A stretch of 64,000 bases of DNA from an uncultured Candidatus Pelagibacter sp. (lineage in GTDB: Bacteria; Pseudomonadota; Alphaproteobacteria; Pelagibacterales; Pelagibacteraceae), in NCBI GenBank assembly GCA_905618915.1, contig CAJQTI010000002.1, positions 1 to 64,000 on the forward strand, written 5' to 3'. The position numbers and the translations under genes were made by a program. This document shows positions 32,139 through 40,881 of the stretch, in pieces. Within the stretch, counting starts at the first letter, position 1; each line of letters opens with the position of its first letter. The notes below the pieces were generated by a model. It was not told where the DNA came from. It did no database searches and saw nothing but the letters and a program-made list of their open reading frames with translations.

Positions 32139-32969
32139 TTAAAATTTTTTTTCTAAATTATTTAAAAAAGTATCTAATTCTTTTTCATCAATTTCAACAA
32201 TATTTTTCTTATCTGGAAAAATCCCTTCTTGAACATCGTTATAAAACTCTTGAAAAGCATTCACTCTTTCTACTTGTAATCTTTCAAATTCTTGTGAAAA
32301 ATTTCTATAAGATTTTGCATGTCTAGGCACATGACCAGTTGTTGTTCCTAAAATGTCGCAGGCAAACAAATATTGAACATCGCAACCTGAGCCACTTCCT
32401 AATGAAAGAATTGTTGTATCAATTTTTTTTGAAATTGCTGAAGCAACTTGATGTGGCACACATTCCATTTCAATTGCAACAGCACCAGCATCTTGAAACC
32501 TTAAACAGTCTTCATAAACTTTAAGAGCATCATCAGAGTTTTTTCCTACAGCTTTAAAACCACCAGTCCAAGTTGTTCGTTGAGGAATTAACCCCACATG
32601 ACCTAAACATGGAATACCTTCTTCGTATAATGATTTTAAAATTTCAATTCGGTGACAGTAGAACATATCAAAATCATGCTCCAACATTTTAAAGGCTAAT
32701 TTTTTTGCTTCATCAAGTGTTGGCCAAAGAGTATCTGGAGCTCCATAATGCATAAAAGCATTAGGTGCTGCTTTTCGAATATTTAACACTTCCTCAAAAC
32801 TAGCATGATCATGTGGATTATTGTATTTTCCACCTGCTCCTGTACCTACCATTTCAATTCCCACTTGATCAGCTGCAAGTGCTTCTTCTTTATTTTTTAC
32901 AAGTATTAAAGTGAGTTGTTTTTTCCCTTTTAAACTCTTTAAATCTTTTACTGTAATTTTTTTTGTCAT
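32139..32969 (-). CDS. PanB-like (ketopantoate hydroxymethyltransferase family) protein, copy 2, divergent
   Basis: GHVGLIPQRTTWTGGFKAVGK, EMECVPHQVASAISKKI, GSGSGCDVQYLFACDILGTTTGHVPRHAKSY follow the PanB scaffold; canonical VGDS/ADLPF/KIEGG not seen. Confidence 0.8.
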   Translation of the reverse strand: MTKKITVKDLKSLKGKKQLTLILVKNKEEALAADQVGIEMVGTGAGGKYNNPHDHASFEEVLNIRKAAPNAFMHYGAPDTLWPTLDEAKKLAFKMLEHDFDMFYCHRIEILKSLYEEGIPCLGHVGLIPQRTTWTGGFKAVGKNSDDALKVYEDCLRFQDAGAVAIEMECVPHQVASAISKKIDTTILSLGSGSGCDVQYLFACDILGTTTGHVPRHAKSYRNFSQEFERLQVERVNAFQEFYNDVQEGIFPDKKNIVEIDEKELDTFLNNLEKKF

Positions 32970-33993: not shown

Positions 33994-34821
33994 CTATAAT
34001 TTTTCTGAGAGTTTTAAAAAGTTTTCAAACTCTTTATCATCAATACCAACAGTAATTTTAGGATCATTAAAATTTTTGTTAATAGTATCTTCATGAAATT
34101 CCCTAAAAGCATTAACTCTTTCAGCTTGAAGTTTAGCAAATTCTTTTTTGAAATCTCTATAAATTCTTGCATGTCTAGGGGTATGGCCTTCAGTGTAGCC
34201 CAGCACATCATTAGCAAACAAATACTGCCCATCACACCCTGATCCACTTCCCATAGAAAGCGTCATTATATTTACTTTTTTAGATATTACCTCAGCAACT
34301 TTAGGAGGAACAACTTCTAATTCTACACCAATGACCCCAGCTTCTTGTAATTCTATTGTATTTTGCAAAATTTTCATCGCTGTATCAGCTGTTTTTCCTT
34401 GAGCTTTAAAACCACCTATCCATGTAGCAATGCCTGGAACTAAACCAACATGACCATTAATAGGAATAAATTCATCTCTTAAAGCTCTAATCCATTTATA
34501 GCTCCAATTACCTCCGTAAACAACATCGGCTCCTACATCTAAATATTTATGACATAATTTCATTGCTTCATACTCTGAAGCTATTCGTACGGCACCACCT
34601 GATTGCATAAAGCATGTTGGAGCAGCTTCCCGAATTCTTTTTAATTCATCGAATGAGTTATAAATTCCATATTGAGGAGCGTCATGAGAAGTGCAAATCA
34701 TATCAATACCAGCTTCTTCTGCAGCTGCAGCTTCTTCAGCATTATGAACAAACATAACACTTAATTGTCTTTTACCCTTACACTGCAAATAATCGTGAAC
34801 TGTTAGTTTTTTTCTAGTCAT
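33994..34821 (-). CDS. PanB-like protein, copy 1, divergent
   Basis: GHVGLVPGIATWIGGFKAQGK, GSGSGCDGQYLFANDVLGYTEGHTPRHARIY; canonical metal-site motifs not seen. Confidence 0.8.
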   Translation of the reverse strand: MTRKKLTVHDYLQCKGKRQLSVMFVHNAEEAAAAEEAGIDMICTSHDAPQYGIYNSFDELKRIREAAPTCFMQSGGAVRIASEYEAMKLCHKYLDVGADVVYGGNWSYKWIRALRDEFIPINGHVGLVPGIATWIGGFKAQGKTADTAMKILQNTIELQEAGVIGVELEVVPPKVAEVISKKVNIMTLSMGSGSGCDGQYLFANDVLGYTEGHTPRHARIYRDFKKEFAKLQAERVNAFREFHEDTINKNFNDPKITVGIDDKEFENFLKLSEKL

Positions 34822-34840: not shown

Positions 34841-35164
34841 TTAAGATATCTTAATATAAACCTTATCATTTTCAACTTTTATTGGATAAGTTTTTAAATC
34901 CTTACAAGCAGGGGGGCTTATAGCTTCTCCAGATTTAATGTTAAATATACCTTGATGCATTGGGCATTCAATTTCTCCATCCACAACTATACCATCTTCT
35001 AAGTGAACCGCCTCATGAGTGCAAACTCCATCAGTTGCATAAAATCCATCTTCCAGTTTGTAGATGCAGTAAGTTTTGTCTTTATGATCAAACCTAAGAA
35101 TATCTTCGACATCCATATTATCTGTTTCACCTACATGTTGCCAATTTTCGTTTTCAATTACCAT
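34841..35164 (-). CDS. MocE-like Rieske 2Fe-2S ferredoxin
   Basis: CTHEAVHLEDG...ECPMHQGIFNIKSGEAISPP Rieske motif. Confidence 0.9.
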   Translation of the reverse strand: MVIENENWQHVGETDNMDVEDILRFDHKDKTYCIYKLEDGFYATDGVCTHEAVHLEDGIVVDGEIECPMHQGIFNIKSGEAISPPACKDLKTYPIKVENDKVYIKIS

Positions 35165-35198
35165 ATAATTTAATTTAGTTAGTATTTTTATATTAAAT

Positions 35199-35204
35199 TT
35201 TATA
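35199..35204 (-). promoter_or_regulatory. Putative -10 (TATAAA) of the Rieske-PanB-desaturase operon
   Basis: Minus-strand TATAAA 34 bp downstream of the 21-bp operator and 40 nt before ATG at 35164. Confidence 0.5.
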
Positions 35205-35238
35205 CATTTTTTTTTAGTAAAATAAAATTTTAAATGCT

Positions 35239-35259
35239 ATAATATGAAAATCATACTAT
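35239..35259. promoter_or_regulatory. Candidate HxlR operator, site 1
   Basis: ATAATATGA-AAA-TCATACTAT, arms 8/9 complementary; 18/21 or better identity to site 2 at 37972-37992; overlaps hxlR TATAAT (35238-35243). Confidence 0.65.
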
Positions 35260-35267
35260 AGTACATT

Positions 35268-35633
35268 ATGTCGCAAAAAAAAATAAATTATCCACTCAAG
35301 AACACTCTTAACCTTTTAGATAATAGATTTAAGTTTGAAATTATTTTTTATTTAACACAAAATAAAATGCGTTTTGGAGAAATTAAAAGTAGCTTATTGC
35401 ATATAAATCAACAATTATTAGCAAAGCTACTGAAGCAATTAGAAAAAGATAAACTTATTAAAAAAAAAGAATTCAAAGGATTTCCAAAAAAAGTTGAATA
35501 TAGCATCACATTCTTTGGCCTTTTATTCAAACCATTAGTGGACAATATGCATAAGTGGGAAGAAAAGAATAAGAAAACTTTACTGAAAAATATCAATAAG
35601 AAAAATTCTGATTCTTTGTATGATTATTATTAA
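35268..35633 (+). CDS. HxlR family winged-helix transcriptional regulator
   Basis: YPLKNTLNLLDNRFKFEIIFYLTQNKMRFGEIKSSLLHINQQLLAKLLKQLEKDKLIKKKEF...KVEYSITFFG HxlR fold pattern. Confidence 0.8.
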   Translation: MSQKKINYPLKNTLNLLDNRFKFEIIFYLTQNKMRFGEIKSSLLHINQQLLAKLLKQLEKDKLIKKKEFKGFPKKVEYSITFFGLLFKPLVDNMHKWEEKNKKTLLKNINKKNSDSLYDYY

Positions 35634-35639
35634 TATAAA

Positions 35640-36875
35640 TTAAATTTTATTTAATTTATTTTTTTTATCAGATAGCAATTGGTTTGTTACCTTGGTTTTT
35701 TTTTCAGAAAGTTTTCCAGCTAGACGAATATCTCTACCTATTTTTCCTCCCACTCCTAAGCCGCAAGCACCAATTATTTTTCTATTTTTTAGAAAAAAAT
35801 ATATAATACCTTCCTCAAGTGACGAACCTCTTTGCGCTACAGAATCGTAATCATTGCATATTCCTGTAAGTTGTAAGTTTAAATTAAACTGATCAGACCA
35901 CATCCATGGTATAGCGTTATAAGAATTTTGTAATCCTGCAATATTTTTACCTGCATTTATACCATGATTTTGTGCATGCTTAAAAGACTCAAGGCGCATA
36001 TGTTCCTTATAAAAGGGATGATAAAAATTTGATACATCACCTGCCGCATAAACGTCTTCTATTGATGTTGCAGAAAATTCATCAGTGATAATTCCATTAT
36101 CGACTTTTAAAGATGTATTGTTAAAAATATCAGTATTAGGTATGGAACCAACACCTATAATGATTAAATCTGAGGTTAAAACTTGATTAGTATTAAGATA
36201 AATTTTAAATGTTTTATTATGTTTTTTAATATTTTCAATTTGAGTATTTAAGTTTATTTTCGCGCCTTCAGATTCATGTTTTTCTAGAATTAAATTAGCT
36301 ATTTGTTTTGGGATTACTCTCCCCATCAGCTGTTCTCCTTTCTCTAGGATTGTAACATTCTTCCCTTTTTGCAATGCTGATGAAGCAATTTCCAAACCTA
36401 TAAAACCACCCCCAATAATTGTTATATTGTTGGCTTTATTAATTTTATTTTTTAAATTATTGCTTTCTTCAAAGCTCCTTAAATAAATTATATTTTCTTC
36501 AGGTAAAATTATTTCCCCATTTATTTTTAAATGTCTGTTTGAACAGCCGGTGGCAATTAAAAGTCTGTCATACTGATAGGTATTTAATGAACAGCTAATT
36601 TTTTTGTTATCAAAATCTACCTTGGTTATTTTTGTGCTACCTTTAAATTTAATATTATTTTCTTTATAGAAATTTTCTGAAAAAAAAAGAAGATCATCAA
36701 ATGTAACTTTATCTAAAACATAATCTTTAGATAAGGGTGGTTTTTCGTAGGGTAAATATTTTTCGTCACTAATAATAGTTATATCTGAATTCTTATCAAT
36801 TAATCTAATTTCTTTTGCAGCATAGGCTGCAGCCTGACCGCCACCAAGAATTAATATTTTTTTTGTTTTATTCAT
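35640..36875 (-). CDS. NAD(P)/FAD-dependent ferredoxin reductase
   Basis: ILGGGQAAAYAAKEIR, YLPYEKPPLSKDY, IIGGGFIGLEIASSALQKG, VYAAGDVSNF. Confidence 0.9.
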   Translation of the reverse strand: MNKTKKILILGGGQAAAYAAKEIRLIDKNSDITIISDEKYLPYEKPPLSKDYVLDKVTFDDLLFFSENFYKENNIKFKGSTKITKVDFDNKKISCSLNTYQYDRLLIATGCSNRHLKINGEIILPEENIIYLRSFEESNNLKNKINKANNITIIGGGFIGLEIASSALQKGKNVTILEKGEQLMGRVIPKQIANLILEKHESEGAKINLNTQIENIKKHNKTFKIYLNTNQVLTSDLIIIGVGSIPNTDIFNNTSLKVDNGIITDEFSATSIEDVYAAGDVSNFYHPFYKEHMRLESFKHAQNHGINAGKNIAGLQNSYNAIPWMWSDQFNLNLQLTGICNDYDSVAQRGSSLEEGIIYFFLKNRKIIGACGLGVGGKIGRDIRLAGKLSEKKTKVTNQLLSDKKNKLNKI

Positions 36876-36917
36876 CTATTAAAAATATAAGTAAATATCT
36901 AAAATATTCATGAGCAC

Positions 36918-37898
36918 TTAACCTGGAACTGTTAAAGGTATTTTATAATCTGGATCTTTGGCCTGTTTAAGTAATGCTGGAACAATCTCTTTATATGCAC
37001 CCCATAATCCTTTTCTTGCAGCTGGTGTTTGGTCTTTAATTAATACGTGTAATCTTTTTAAATTATAGGATGGAACCTGAGGAAACATGTGATGCTCAAC
37101 ATGATATTCCATATGCCAATATAAAAAACTAAAAATAGGATTTAGATAAACTGTTCTTGTTGATAAGCGATGATCTTTTACATCTTCTTGTAAACCCGCA
37201 TGCTGGGTAAGCCCCATTAACATAACTAATGTTTTTCCATAGAAATTTGGAAGAACAATAAATAATACTGGCAACCAAGACTGAAAATATACTGAGCAGA
37301 ATATTGTTGCTAGCCAAATAAATACATGGCTTCTTGCTGACCATCTACATTTAGATCTATCATCTTCAGGAATGCACACTTTCATTACTTCTGTTGTTAC
37401 TCCAAATGCATGTTTTATTGTTTCCCATTGAAGAGACTTTTTAAAAAAAACAAAACCTGAAAAAGGAATGAAATGAGAAAAGAAAACTAAAAGGTCAGTT
37501 GGTTTTTTAACGGCTAATTCAAAATCAACTGGATCACTAAAACTCGTGTAGGTATGATGATGGTAATGTGAATATCTCCATCTGATTGGCTCAAAATTAT
37601 CCATAAAGCTAGCTATGTAATAAAAAAAATCATTCCAAAATTTAGATTTAAATGCTGTTCTATGTCCAGTTTCATGCCACATGGCATCACTACATCCCCA
37701 TATATTTCCATAAATTAAGAAGAACAATAAAGACCACCAAGTACCCCATGTAGCGTAGGCTAAATAACCAAAAAATATTAAAGAAGAAAAATATATTAGC
37801 ATGTGCTTAAAGCCCTGCCAGTCAGATTTTTTGCAAAGTTCTTTGAATTCTTTTTTATCCACTTCACATCTAAACCACTTATCTATATCCACATCCAT
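36918..37898 (-). CDS. Fatty acid desaturase/MocD-like membrane di-iron oxygenase, copy 1
   Basis: His boxes HETGHR, HYHHHTYT, EYHVEHHMFPQVP. Confidence 0.88.
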   Translation of the reverse strand: MDVDIDKWFRCEVDKKEFKELCKKSDWQGFKHMLIYFSSLIFFGYLAYATWGTWWSLLFFLIYGNIWGCSDAMWHETGHRTAFKSKFWNDFFYYIASFMDNFEPIRWRYSHYHHHTYTSFSDPVDFELAVKKPTDLLVFFSHFIPFSGFVFFKKSLQWETIKHAFGVTTEVMKVCIPEDDRSKCRWSARSHVFIWLATIFCSVYFQSWLPVLFIVLPNFYGKTLVMLMGLTQHAGLQEDVKDHRLSTRTVYLNPIFSFLYWHMEYHVEHHMFPQVPSYNLKRLHVLIKDQTPAARKGLWGAYKEIVPALLKQAKDPDYKIPLTVPG

Positions 37899-37931
37899 AT
37901 TATTAATTTACCATATTTTCATTAATTTTAA

Positions 37932-37937
37932 ATTATA
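37932..37937 (-). promoter_or_regulatory. Putative -10 (TATAAT) of the desaturase-ferredoxin reductase operon
   Basis: Minus-strand TATAAT 34 bp downstream of operator site 2 and 39 nt before ATG at 37898. Confidence 0.5.
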
Positions 37938-37971
37938 AAAATTAATCTTTTTAACAAATAATAGCCCATTC

Positions 37972-37992
37972 ATAGTGTGATTTTCATAGTAT
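37972..37992. promoter_or_regulatory. Candidate HxlR operator, site 2
   Basis: Minus strand ATACTATGA-AAA-TCACACTAT; matches site 1 at 35239-35259; lies in divergent region between desaturase and SBP genes. Confidence 0.65.
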
Positions 37993-38083
37993 GGCTACTT
38001 AAGAATTATTAATTTTTAAGTTTGTAATAAATAAATTTATTACATAGAGTAAAAAAATAAAAAAATAATCTAATGGAGAAATA

Positions 38084-39061
38084 ATGAAAAAAATCTTAAC
38101 TTTCGTAGCGATACTTTTTGCTTTTGCATCAACTTCTGCAATGGCAAATGACTACAAATGTGATAAAAAATTTATCTTTTTTCCAGGTGGACCTGAAGGT
38201 GGACCATTTGGAACGATAGTTTATAATGGTGCAGTTGCAGCCGCAGAGCACACAGGTTGTAAAGTTGATTATTACTGGTCTCAATGGAACTCAGAAATAA
38301 TGATAAAACAATTTAAAGAAGCAGTAGCTCTTCAACCAGATGGAATTGCCATTTATGGTTTTCCTGGTGATGCTGCAATGAGACCTATTATTAATGAAGC
38401 AATAGAAATGGGAATAGTAATTACTACTATGAACACTCCACTTCCTGATTTAGAAGCAGAATTTAAAACTTCAGGATTTGGTTATGCAGGTGCTGATCTT
38501 TTTGATGCTGGTTTTAATCTTGGTAAAAAAGGTGTTGAAGTATGTGGCCTTAAAGCTGGAGATAAAGCTTTTATATGGGGTCTTGCAAGTATGCCAAATA
38601 GAGGTGAAAGAACTAAAGGTGCTATAGCTGGTGTTGAGTCTATGGGTGTTAAAGTTGTGTATCAGGAAATTCCTGACAACGTAAACTCTGATGCTTCTCA
38701 AGGTACTCCAATGTATGTTGCTACCTACGCTGCAAATCCTGATATCAAAATGGCTATTACTGATCATGGTGGTTTAACAGCAAGTTTACCTACTTACATG
38801 AAAGCTGCTGGCCACGGAACAGAAGCTGTTTGTGGTGCAGGTTTTGATTTATCAGCACCAATTGTTGATGGAATTAATTCTGGATACATTGATGTTGTAA
38901 TTGATCAACAACCTTTTATTCAAGGATATATGCCAATTGTGCAGCTTTACCTTTCTACTAAATTTGGTATGGCTGGTTTAGCAATGGATACTGGAGCAGC
39001 ATTTGTTACAAAAGCAAATATTGATGCAATAGCTCCGTTAGCAGCGCAACAAATCCGATAA
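38084..39061 (+). CDS. Sugar ABC transporter substrate-binding protein
   Basis: Signal peptide; FFPGGPEGGPFGTIVYNGAVAAAEHTG periplasmic binding protein pattern. Confidence 0.87.
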   Translation: MKKILTFVAILFAFASTSAMANDYKCDKKFIFFPGGPEGGPFGTIVYNGAVAAAEHTGCKVDYYWSQWNSEIMIKQFKEAVALQPDGIAIYGFPGDAAMRPIINEAIEMGIVITTMNTPLPDLEAEFKTSGFGYAGADLFDAGFNLGKKGVEVCGLKAGDKAFIWGLASMPNRGERTKGAIAGVESMGVKVVYQEIPDNVNSDASQGTPMYVATYAANPDIKMAITDHGGLTASLPTYMKAAGHGTEAVCGAGFDLSAPIVDGINSGYIDVVIDQQPFIQGYMPIVQLYLSTKFGMAGLAMDTGAAFVTKANIDAIAPLAAQQIR

Positions 39062-39138: not shown

Positions 39139-39903
39139 ATGGAAGATCTTTTACAATTAAAAAATATTTATAAAGACTTTGGGAATGTTAAAGTTCTTAA
39201 GGACGTTAATATTAATATCAAAAAAGGTGAGGTAGTGGCTCTTATTGGCGATAATGGTGCTGGAAAATCTACTTTAATTAAAGTTATAACGGGAGTGCAT
39301 AAACCTTCATCAGGTCAAGTTTATTTTAAAGGCAATGAAGTTGTTTTAAAATCTGTCGCCCAATCAAGAAAAATGGGTATTGAAGCAGTATATCAAGAAA
39401 GAGCTTTATGCGATCAGCAAGAATTATGGAGAAATATATTTGCAGGAAGAGAAATTACTAATACTTTTGGTTTCATAGATATCAAGAAACAAAGAAAAGA
39501 AGCTGAGAAAATTCTAAGAGATTATATAGGCTTTACCTCTAAAGCTATCACTGTTGACTCAACTATAATGGGATTATCGGGTGGTGAAAAACAAGGAGTA
39601 GCTTTTGGAAGATCTTTATATTTTGATTCAGACTTAATTGTTCTTGACGAACCTACAATGGGCCTATCAATTCAGGAAACTGAAAAAGTTTTAAATTTTG
39701 TTAAAGGACTAAAAAAAGAAAATAAGTCTGCAATTTTTATAGATCATAATATTATTCATGTTTATGGAGCAGCTGATAGGTTTATAATTTTAGATAGAGG
39801 AGAAGTTGCGGGGGAGTTTAATAAAAATGAAATATCTAGAGATGAACTTGTTAAAAAAATGATTCAACTACATGAATCTGGAAAAATAAAGGTGAATGAT
39901 TAG
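39139..39903 (+). CDS. Sugar ABC transporter ATP-binding protein
   Basis: GDNGAGKST, LSGGEKQGVAFGRSLYFDSDLIVLDEPTMGLS. Confidence 0.92.
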   Translation: MEDLLQLKNIYKDFGNVKVLKDVNINIKKGEVVALIGDNGAGKSTLIKVITGVHKPSSGQVYFKGNEVVLKSVAQSRKMGIEAVYQERALCDQQELWRNIFAGREITNTFGFIDIKKQRKEAEKILRDYIGFTSKAITVDSTIMGLSGGEKQGVAFGRSLYFDSDLIVLDEPTMGLSIQETEKVLNFVKGLKKENKSAIFIDHNIIHVYGAADRFIILDRGEVAGEFNKNEISRDELVKKMIQLHESGKIKVND

Positions 39904-40881
39904 ATGAGCGCAATACTAAATAGCTATTTTGTAAAAACACATCGATTAGAGATAAGCATAACAATTATAGCAATTATTCTTTTCTTAATTTATTTGATAG
40001 GTGCCCCTCAAGTTTTCACACGATTTCCTATCTATAGAGCTTTTATGCAATCTATGCCATTTTTTGGTATCATAGCAATTTCAGTCACCTTTGTAATAAC
40101 ACTTGGTGAAATCGATTTATCATTTCCCTCAATTGTGGGAATAACTTCACTTACTTTTGGCTCTATATTAACTGTGACCGACGGTAATTTCTTTATCGCT
40201 TTTGCTTTAGCTTCAATGTTAGGGATGTTTGCAGGACTTATTAATGGACTTCTAGTAACTAAAATTGGGATACCCTCGATAGTTGCTACTATTGGAACAT
40301 TGTATTTTTGGAGAGGATTAGTGAATGTTGTTTCTCAAGGAAAAGGTGTTGCAATAGTAGATGTAGCAGATGGCACATGGCATCATGCTTTATTTGTGGA
40401 AAAATTTTTAGATAAAATCCCAGCACAATTTATTTGGTTCATCGTCTTAACTGGTTTAATGCAATGGGTTTACCGATATCATAAGTTTGGTAACCATATT
40501 CACTTTGTTGGTGATAACAAAGCTAGCTCTCAAATGATGGGTATCAACGTTGATAATGTTAAGATAATTGCTTTTGTTCAATTAGGTTTCTTCTCTTCTC
40601 TTGCTGGAATATTTACTATGTATGAAATGCTATATTTTTGGCCAACTCAGGGATCAGGATTAATGCTCACTACATTAGCTGCTGTTTTTGTTGGTGGAAC
40701 ATCAGTATTTGGTGGCAAAGGAACCATATTTGGAACCTTTATAGGGGTGTTAATTATTGGCTCTCTCGAGTCAGGTATAATCGCCTTAGGTTTATCTGGT
40801 TTTTATGTTCAGTTTATAAATGGGATAATGATAACTGGTGCAGTTACAATATATGCATTAATTCAGCGAAAAAAAACTTAG
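39904..40881 (+). CDS. Sugar ABC transporter permease
   Basis: GEIDLSFPSIVGI, GDNKASSQMMGI, VFGGKGTIFGTFIGVLIIGSLESGI. Confidence 0.9.
   Translation: MSAILNSYFVKTHRLEISITIIAIILFLIYLIGAPQVFTRFPIYRAFMQSMPFFGIIAISVTFVITLGEIDLSFPSIVGITSLTFGSILTVTDGNFFIAFALASMLGMFAGLINGLLVTKIGIPSIVATIGTLYFWRGLVNVVSQGKGVAIVDVADGTWHHALFVEKFLDKIPAQFIWFIVLTGLMQWVYRYHKFGNHIHFVGDNKASSQMMGINVDNVKIIAFVQLGFFSSLAGIFTMYEMLYFWPTQGSGLMLTTLAAVFVGGTSVFGGKGTIFGTFIGVLIIGSLESGIIALGLSGFYVQFINGIMITGAVTIYALIQRKKT

Follow-up and report, generated by a model that had tools for sequence, protein, structure and literature searches.

How does a regulator of the HxlR family come to lie, in antisense orientation, within an oxygenase operon of a SAR11 bacterium, and which promoters does it control? 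The question is raised by a locus of an uncultured Candidatus Pelagibacter sp. that is contained in a stretch of 64,000 nucleotides (hereafter, the window). An earlier inspection of this DNA (hereafter, the original prediction) described a 21-bp dyad shared by the promoters of two operons next to hxlR and proposed a candidate HxlR regulon. The best explanation, in which we place considerable confidence, is that the neighbouring HxlR uses the dyad as its operator, that the gain of an antisense hxlR gene split the operon, and that both halves are under this one regulator.

An oxygenase operon split by an antisense hxlR gene

The hxlR gene (positions 35268-35633, plus strand) encodes a protein of 121 amino acids that belongs to the HxlR family by its match to the Pfam profile (PF01638; 70.8 bits versus a cut-off of 20.8, E = 8.6e-20) and lies antisense between two minus-strand genes, fdr and rieske. 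The upstream half-operon starts with desA (36918-37898, minus strand), which codes for a MocD-like membrane desaturase (PF00487), and includes fdr (35640-36875, minus strand), coding for a ferredoxin reductase with Pyr_redox_2 and Reductase_C domains that is MocF-like by position. The first gene of the downstream half-operon is rieske (34841-35164), encoding a MocE-like Rieske [2Fe-2S] ferredoxin that scores 126.9 bits against TIGR02377, just under the cut-off of 136.15. It is followed, also on the minus strand, by genes for a PanB-like protein of the ketopantoate hydroxymethyltransferase fold that falls far under the PanB equivalog cut-off (33994-34821), a second membrane desaturase/hydroxylase (PF00487; 32973-33989), a second PanB-like protein (32139-32969) and, at the end of the conserved operon, a fatty acid hydroxylase superfamily protein (PF04116; 31128-32135). 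Divergently from desA, the plus strand carries sbp (38084-39061), encoding a sugar-type periplasmic binding protein (PF13407) whose best NCBIfam model is the rhizopine-binding protein, at a score of 84 versus a cut-off of 420, and the ATPase and permease genes of the ABC transporter to which this protein belongs (39139-40881).

A similar row of genes, for a desaturase with 43% identity to desA, a MocE-type ferredoxin, an FAD reductase and a PanB-like protein, is present on pSymB of S. meliloti, where it adjoins ABC transport genes. Rhizobial plasmids also carry LacI-desaturase-MocE-reductase-PanB-like cassettes (L214, 6679-11673; L215, 6757-11420), that is, the same module with another regulator, and the regulator of the rhizopine moc genes, MocR, is of the LacI type (PMC10107442). 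The local regulator is of the LacI type in the rhizobial cassette and an HxlR in the window, whereas the other SAR11 clusters have none. The likeness to MocDEF invites the guess that a methylated sugar or inositol is the substrate of the pathway. Both PanB-like proteins of the window, as well as another (L208, 2750-3568), are far under the PanB cut-offs; such proteins recur beside oxygenases in SAR11 and rhizobial clusters and are possibly tied to one-carbon units.

The closest clusters are those of SAR11 bacteria, in records from alphaproteobacterial single-cell genomes and from MAGs of Pelagibacteraceae. Dozens of other SAR11 genomes share the conserved desaturase-reductase-Rieske-PanB-like-desaturase-hydroxylase operon along with its divergently oriented ABC transporter, and fdr and rieske adjoin in one unbroken operon in most of the near loci (75-90% desA identity). 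Among the 80 loci that were fetched with desA and mapped for gene content, none has an HxlR in the cluster, even at an E-value of 0.01; the window alone has hxlR in the gap between fdr and rieske, where, on the opposite strand and 6 bp away from the end of fdr, it splits the operon. No orthologue of the window HxlR was found in 399 genomes of the same genus (best identity, 43%), and a search of viral contigs and plasmids for relatives of this HxlR returned none. The possibility that fdr had been replaced from outside along with hxlR was considered and rejected because fdr, which in the window shares 55-59% identity with its relatives, is equally divergent between those relatives, for example, L047 and L049. 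In several SAR11 loci (L088, L089, L090, L097 and L099), a PanB-like gene precedes desA and the cluster is without its fdr-rieske part.

We propose that this lineage would have gained hxlR by its insertion, in antisense orientation, into the conserved SAR11 MocDEF/PanB-like oxygenase operon, at the junction of fdr and rieske, and that the insertion would have turned one transcription unit into two.

Two matching dyads within the cluster

Each half of the split operon has one dyad, and among the loci compared these dyads were seen in the window only. Their coordinates and sequences, as well as the positions of the genes, are exactly those originally given. The putative operator 1 has its core at 35239-35259; its palindrome is real but had been drawn too short, the full 11-3-11 form (CTATAaTATGA-AAA-TCATAcTATAG, 35237-35261) having 10 of 11 positions paired. 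This site overlaps the TATAAT of hxlR (35238-35243) and ends 6-8 bp before the hxlR ATG. The putative operator 2 (37972-37992; minus-strand sequence ATACTATGAAAATCACACTAT) is located 73 bp 5' of the desA ATG and 91 bp from the ATG of the divergent sbp, and has 7 of 9 positions paired, or 8 of 10 in an extended form.

Could the likeness of the two sites be a chance match in AT-rich DNA? Aligned without gaps, the two intergenic regions match at best 19/21 over a 21-mer, a level reached by 22 of 2000 dinucleotide shuffles (1.1%, P ~0.011). Against TAGTAT-N7-ATACTA, the arms derived from other hxlR promoters, the score is 11/12 for site 1 (P 0.006) and 10/12 for site 2 (P 0.07), so that the arms of site 2 alone are not significant. 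Against chance, the pattern ATAnTATGAnnnTCAyACTAT is matched without mismatches only at sites 1 and 2 in the 853-kb assembly of this genome (54 contigs, ~60% complete), the next-best place having 2 mismatches; with site 1 as the query, site 2 is the sole other match at up to 2 mismatches. Many copies of the dyad at unrelated places were thus not found, and both exact sites fall within the cluster, as would be the case for a shared operator, although further sites may exist because the assembly is 60% complete. Looser matches are taken as noise, since at up to 3 mismatches the read-backwards control gave 14 matches versus 11; genome-wide operator scans at this threshold, or for the N8 form with 2 mismatches, yielded only background, not above the controls. 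Given also the position of one site in the hxlR promoter and the independent occurrence of the arms at other hxlR promoters, we consider a chance match very unlikely.

The comparison across SAR11 bears on a further alternative, namely that a regulator other than HxlR uses the dyads, to which hxlR would have no relation. Binding of HxlR to the dyads is predicted from sequence, and a conserved element of another kind, GTCGCACTTA or ATGCGACATA, is located upstream of desA in the hxlR-less relatives. However, hxlR and the dyads occur together only in this genome, with one dyad inside the hxlR promoter and with arms that match other hxlR promoters, which makes assignment to another regulator improbable. 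The dyad is absent from all 60 testable desA/sbp intergenic regions, where the best partial match has at least 4 mismatches in 21. Some conserved clusters do lack the dyad, which had been named as an argument against the assignment to HxlR, yet hxlR is missing from all of these clusters as well; because of this joint absence, the finding counts as support for the assignment, with the weight of one observation, given that the co-occurrence of hxlR and dyad represents one gain event in one genome. The GTCGCACTTA or ATGCGACATA element is located ~55-65 bp before desA in the hxlR-less relatives (L050-L112; also L049, L092 and L095) and is lacking from the desA promoter of the window; it may be bound by an older regulator.

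The same arms at other hxlR promoters

We gathered the upstream regions of 41 other hxlR-family genes and required at least 9 of 10 arm bases for a match. By this measure, AGTAT-N8-ATACT is present in 20 of the 41, versus 0.8 expected from shuffles, many of these being related SAR11 sequences and not 20 independent events; each of the other gap lengths that were tried matched 0 to 7 of the 41. The N8 palindrome was also found in distant alphaproteobacteria (L160, L167), and the background of dyads scoring 11/12 or better, in the N7 or N8 form, is 3 in 1036 kb. The arms in the window are those of the other hxlR promoters, with a gap of 7 bp (N7) versus the 8 bp that prevails at cysteine-bearing SAR11 and other alphaproteobacterial hxlR promoters. 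An operator-like palindrome in the own promoter is a feature that the window HxlR shares with the HxlR/DUF24 regulators HxlR, YodB, YybR and YdzF, and site 1 is such a palindrome of the family type, with N7 in place of N8, in the place usual for the dyads of SAR11 hxlR genes, over the -10 and 8 bp before the ATG.

Dyads of the N7 form, at 10/12, were detected once each at the hxlR genes of G006, G041, G483 and G581, all of which encode an HxlR without an equivalent of Cys11. The genome of the window itself has a second HxlR (G000:C11:5716-6075, L204), which is cysteine-bearing and has an N8 operator. This paralogue adjoins DoxX-, pirin- and quinone-oxidoreductase-like genes and recurs in other SAR11 genomes.

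Another SAR11 genome, G024 (L203), encodes a cysteine-free HxlR with 43% identity to that of the window and has dyads scoring 11, 12 and 12 of 12 at its GMC/PhyH, hxlR/SDR and TRAP binding-protein promoters, respectively, as well as a further TAGTAT-N7-ATACTA dyad at an unlinked promoter of the TctCBA/enolase type. Like the window HxlR, the G024 regulator has no Cys11 equivalent, and N7 dyads mark hxlR as well as other promoters in its catabolic oxygenase cluster; unlike in the window, this cluster consists of PhyH-like, flavin monooxygenase-like, GMC oxidoreductase, SDR, ALDH and TRAP genes and is complemented by the unlinked fourth site. Gene names in clusters of this type (PhyH, GMC, TRAP, TctCBA and others) are readings of translations, not the outcome of profile searches. 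Across the 399 same-genus genomes, exact TAGTAT-N7-ATACTA occurs at 15 sites in 12 genomes, and six of these sites belong to the G024-type regulon: the cluster of G024 has two and the unlinked TctCBA/enolase promoter of this genome one, G602 has two, at TRAP and TctCBA promoters, and G439 has one at a TRAP promoter, the contigs of G602 and G439 ending before the expected place of hxlR. Positions recorded for the motif are 3609, 7261 and 10628 in L203, 4235 in L239, 4446 in L237, 3259 in L238 and 2072 in L236.

The core of the original prediction, that is, the dyad as the HxlR operator, autoregulation and a local regulon of two operons, is strengthened because hxlR and the dyad are present or absent together across SAR11 and because the same arms recur at other hxlR promoters; it thereby gains strong independent support. 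Judging from the sequence evidence, the HxlR of the window very probably governs both operon halves as well as its own gene. An HxlR dimer would bind site 1, in the core promoter of hxlR and upstream of the rieske half-operon, and a dimer would likewise bind site 2, upstream of the desA half-operon, and the two bound sites would keep both halves of the pathway under a single regulator. We regard this arrangement as a genuine, lineage-specific local HxlR regulon, in which the kind of regulator is known and the example is new.

Sign of regulation and nature of the signal

Both -10-like hexamers of the half-operons are found where predicted, 34 bp from the dyads: TATAAA for the rieske half-operon (35199-35204, minus strand), the identity of which is not secure, and TATAAT for desA (37932-37937, minus strand), which is embedded in a TTTTTATA-rich block partly common to relatives. 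The identical spacing had been offered as evidence, a use that does not hold given that a shared TATAAT-like offset appears in 22% of shuffled pairs (P ~0.22). Duplication of one promoter region from the other was rejected, as the regions downstream of the two dyads align no better than shuffles (P 0.58).

Activation of both half-operons from the upstream dyads, with repression of hxlR only, would resemble the action of B. subtilis HxlR at hxlAB, and we give this mode roughly even odds. B. subtilis HxlR is an activator (PMC7835342), the L203 dyads are located ~115-130 bp upstream of their target ATGs, and both dyads of the window end 34 bp upstream of a -10-like hexamer that has no good -35 at 15-19 bp (best, 3/6). 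Conversely, -10-like hexamers are everywhere in AT-rich DNA and, at a shared offset, are as frequent in shuffles as noted above, the hxlR-less relatives likewise have only moderate -35 elements, and the start sites of the half-operons in the window are presumed ones. Comparison of the -35 regions with those of relatives did not decide the sign of regulation, and the -35 argument originally made for activator dependence is too weak to support it.

The other possible mode, in which all three promoters are kept under repression by HxlR until a substrate or intermediate releases it, in the manner of YodB or CatR but driven by a ligand, appears somewhat less probable. It accords with the overlap of site 1 with the hxlR -10, as is usual for SAR11 hxlR dyads, and with the position of one L203 dyad, 11 bp from where the GMC oxidoreductase gene starts, whereas the dyads at the two half-operons of the window sit upstream of the presumed core promoters. 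Negative autoregulation of hxlR is likely, given that its -10 is covered by site 1, the end of which is 8 bp from the ATG. For the half-operons, the placement of the dyads, 73-74 bp before the ATGs and upstream of the presumed core promoters, leans slightly to activation.

The relatives of the window HxlR in the PDB are YybR (4a5n, E = 1.8e-14), YdzF (9wvg), HxlR (7bze) and YodB (5hs7). In B. subtilis HxlR, Cys11 forms a formaldehyde crosslink with Lys13 (PMC7835342). There is no cysteine among the 121 residues of the window HxlR, in which Tyr8 aligns with the sensor Cys11 and the family motif GGKWK reads DNRFK. The protein therefore falls outside the thiol- or formaldehyde-sensing subtype, which is defined by Cys11 or, for formaldehyde, by Cys11 and Lys13. 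Sensing of thiol stress or formaldehyde is accordingly judged unlikely from the protein sequence, as is a link of formaldehyde sensing to demethylation. Because the protein is devoid of cysteine, its signal is probably a bound pathway metabolite or ligand.

Inclusion of the ABC transporter in the regulon had proximity as its sole ground. By analogy with the G024 regulon, which includes transporter promoters, membership of sbp is plausible and remains a possible extension.

On a broader scale, we tentatively suggest, at somewhat less than even confidence, that cysteine-free SAR11 HxlRs form a ligand-responsive subgroup that reads TAGTAT-N7-ATACTA, is separated by this spacing from the N8 sites of cysteine-bearing paralogues in the same cell, and supplies plug-in local regulators to oxygenase catabolic clusters. 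Here, an operon that had lacked a local regulator would have received a gene of this type in antisense orientation, with both halves then gaining an operator, which would amount to a recent rewiring in a streamlined genome. Independent cases of this subgroup are few, and in the tree the window HxlR is on a very long branch (2.49), not firmly placed with the cysteine-free N7 group. The division into N7 and N8 operators points to a simple code that would keep HxlR paralogues from cross-talk. The split and unsplit operons of SAR11 provide a natural before-and-after case of operon splitting accompanied by the gain of a regulator, and in these streamlined genomes, with their few regulators, a local regulator with mapped, predicted operators offers a rare handle on catabolic control.
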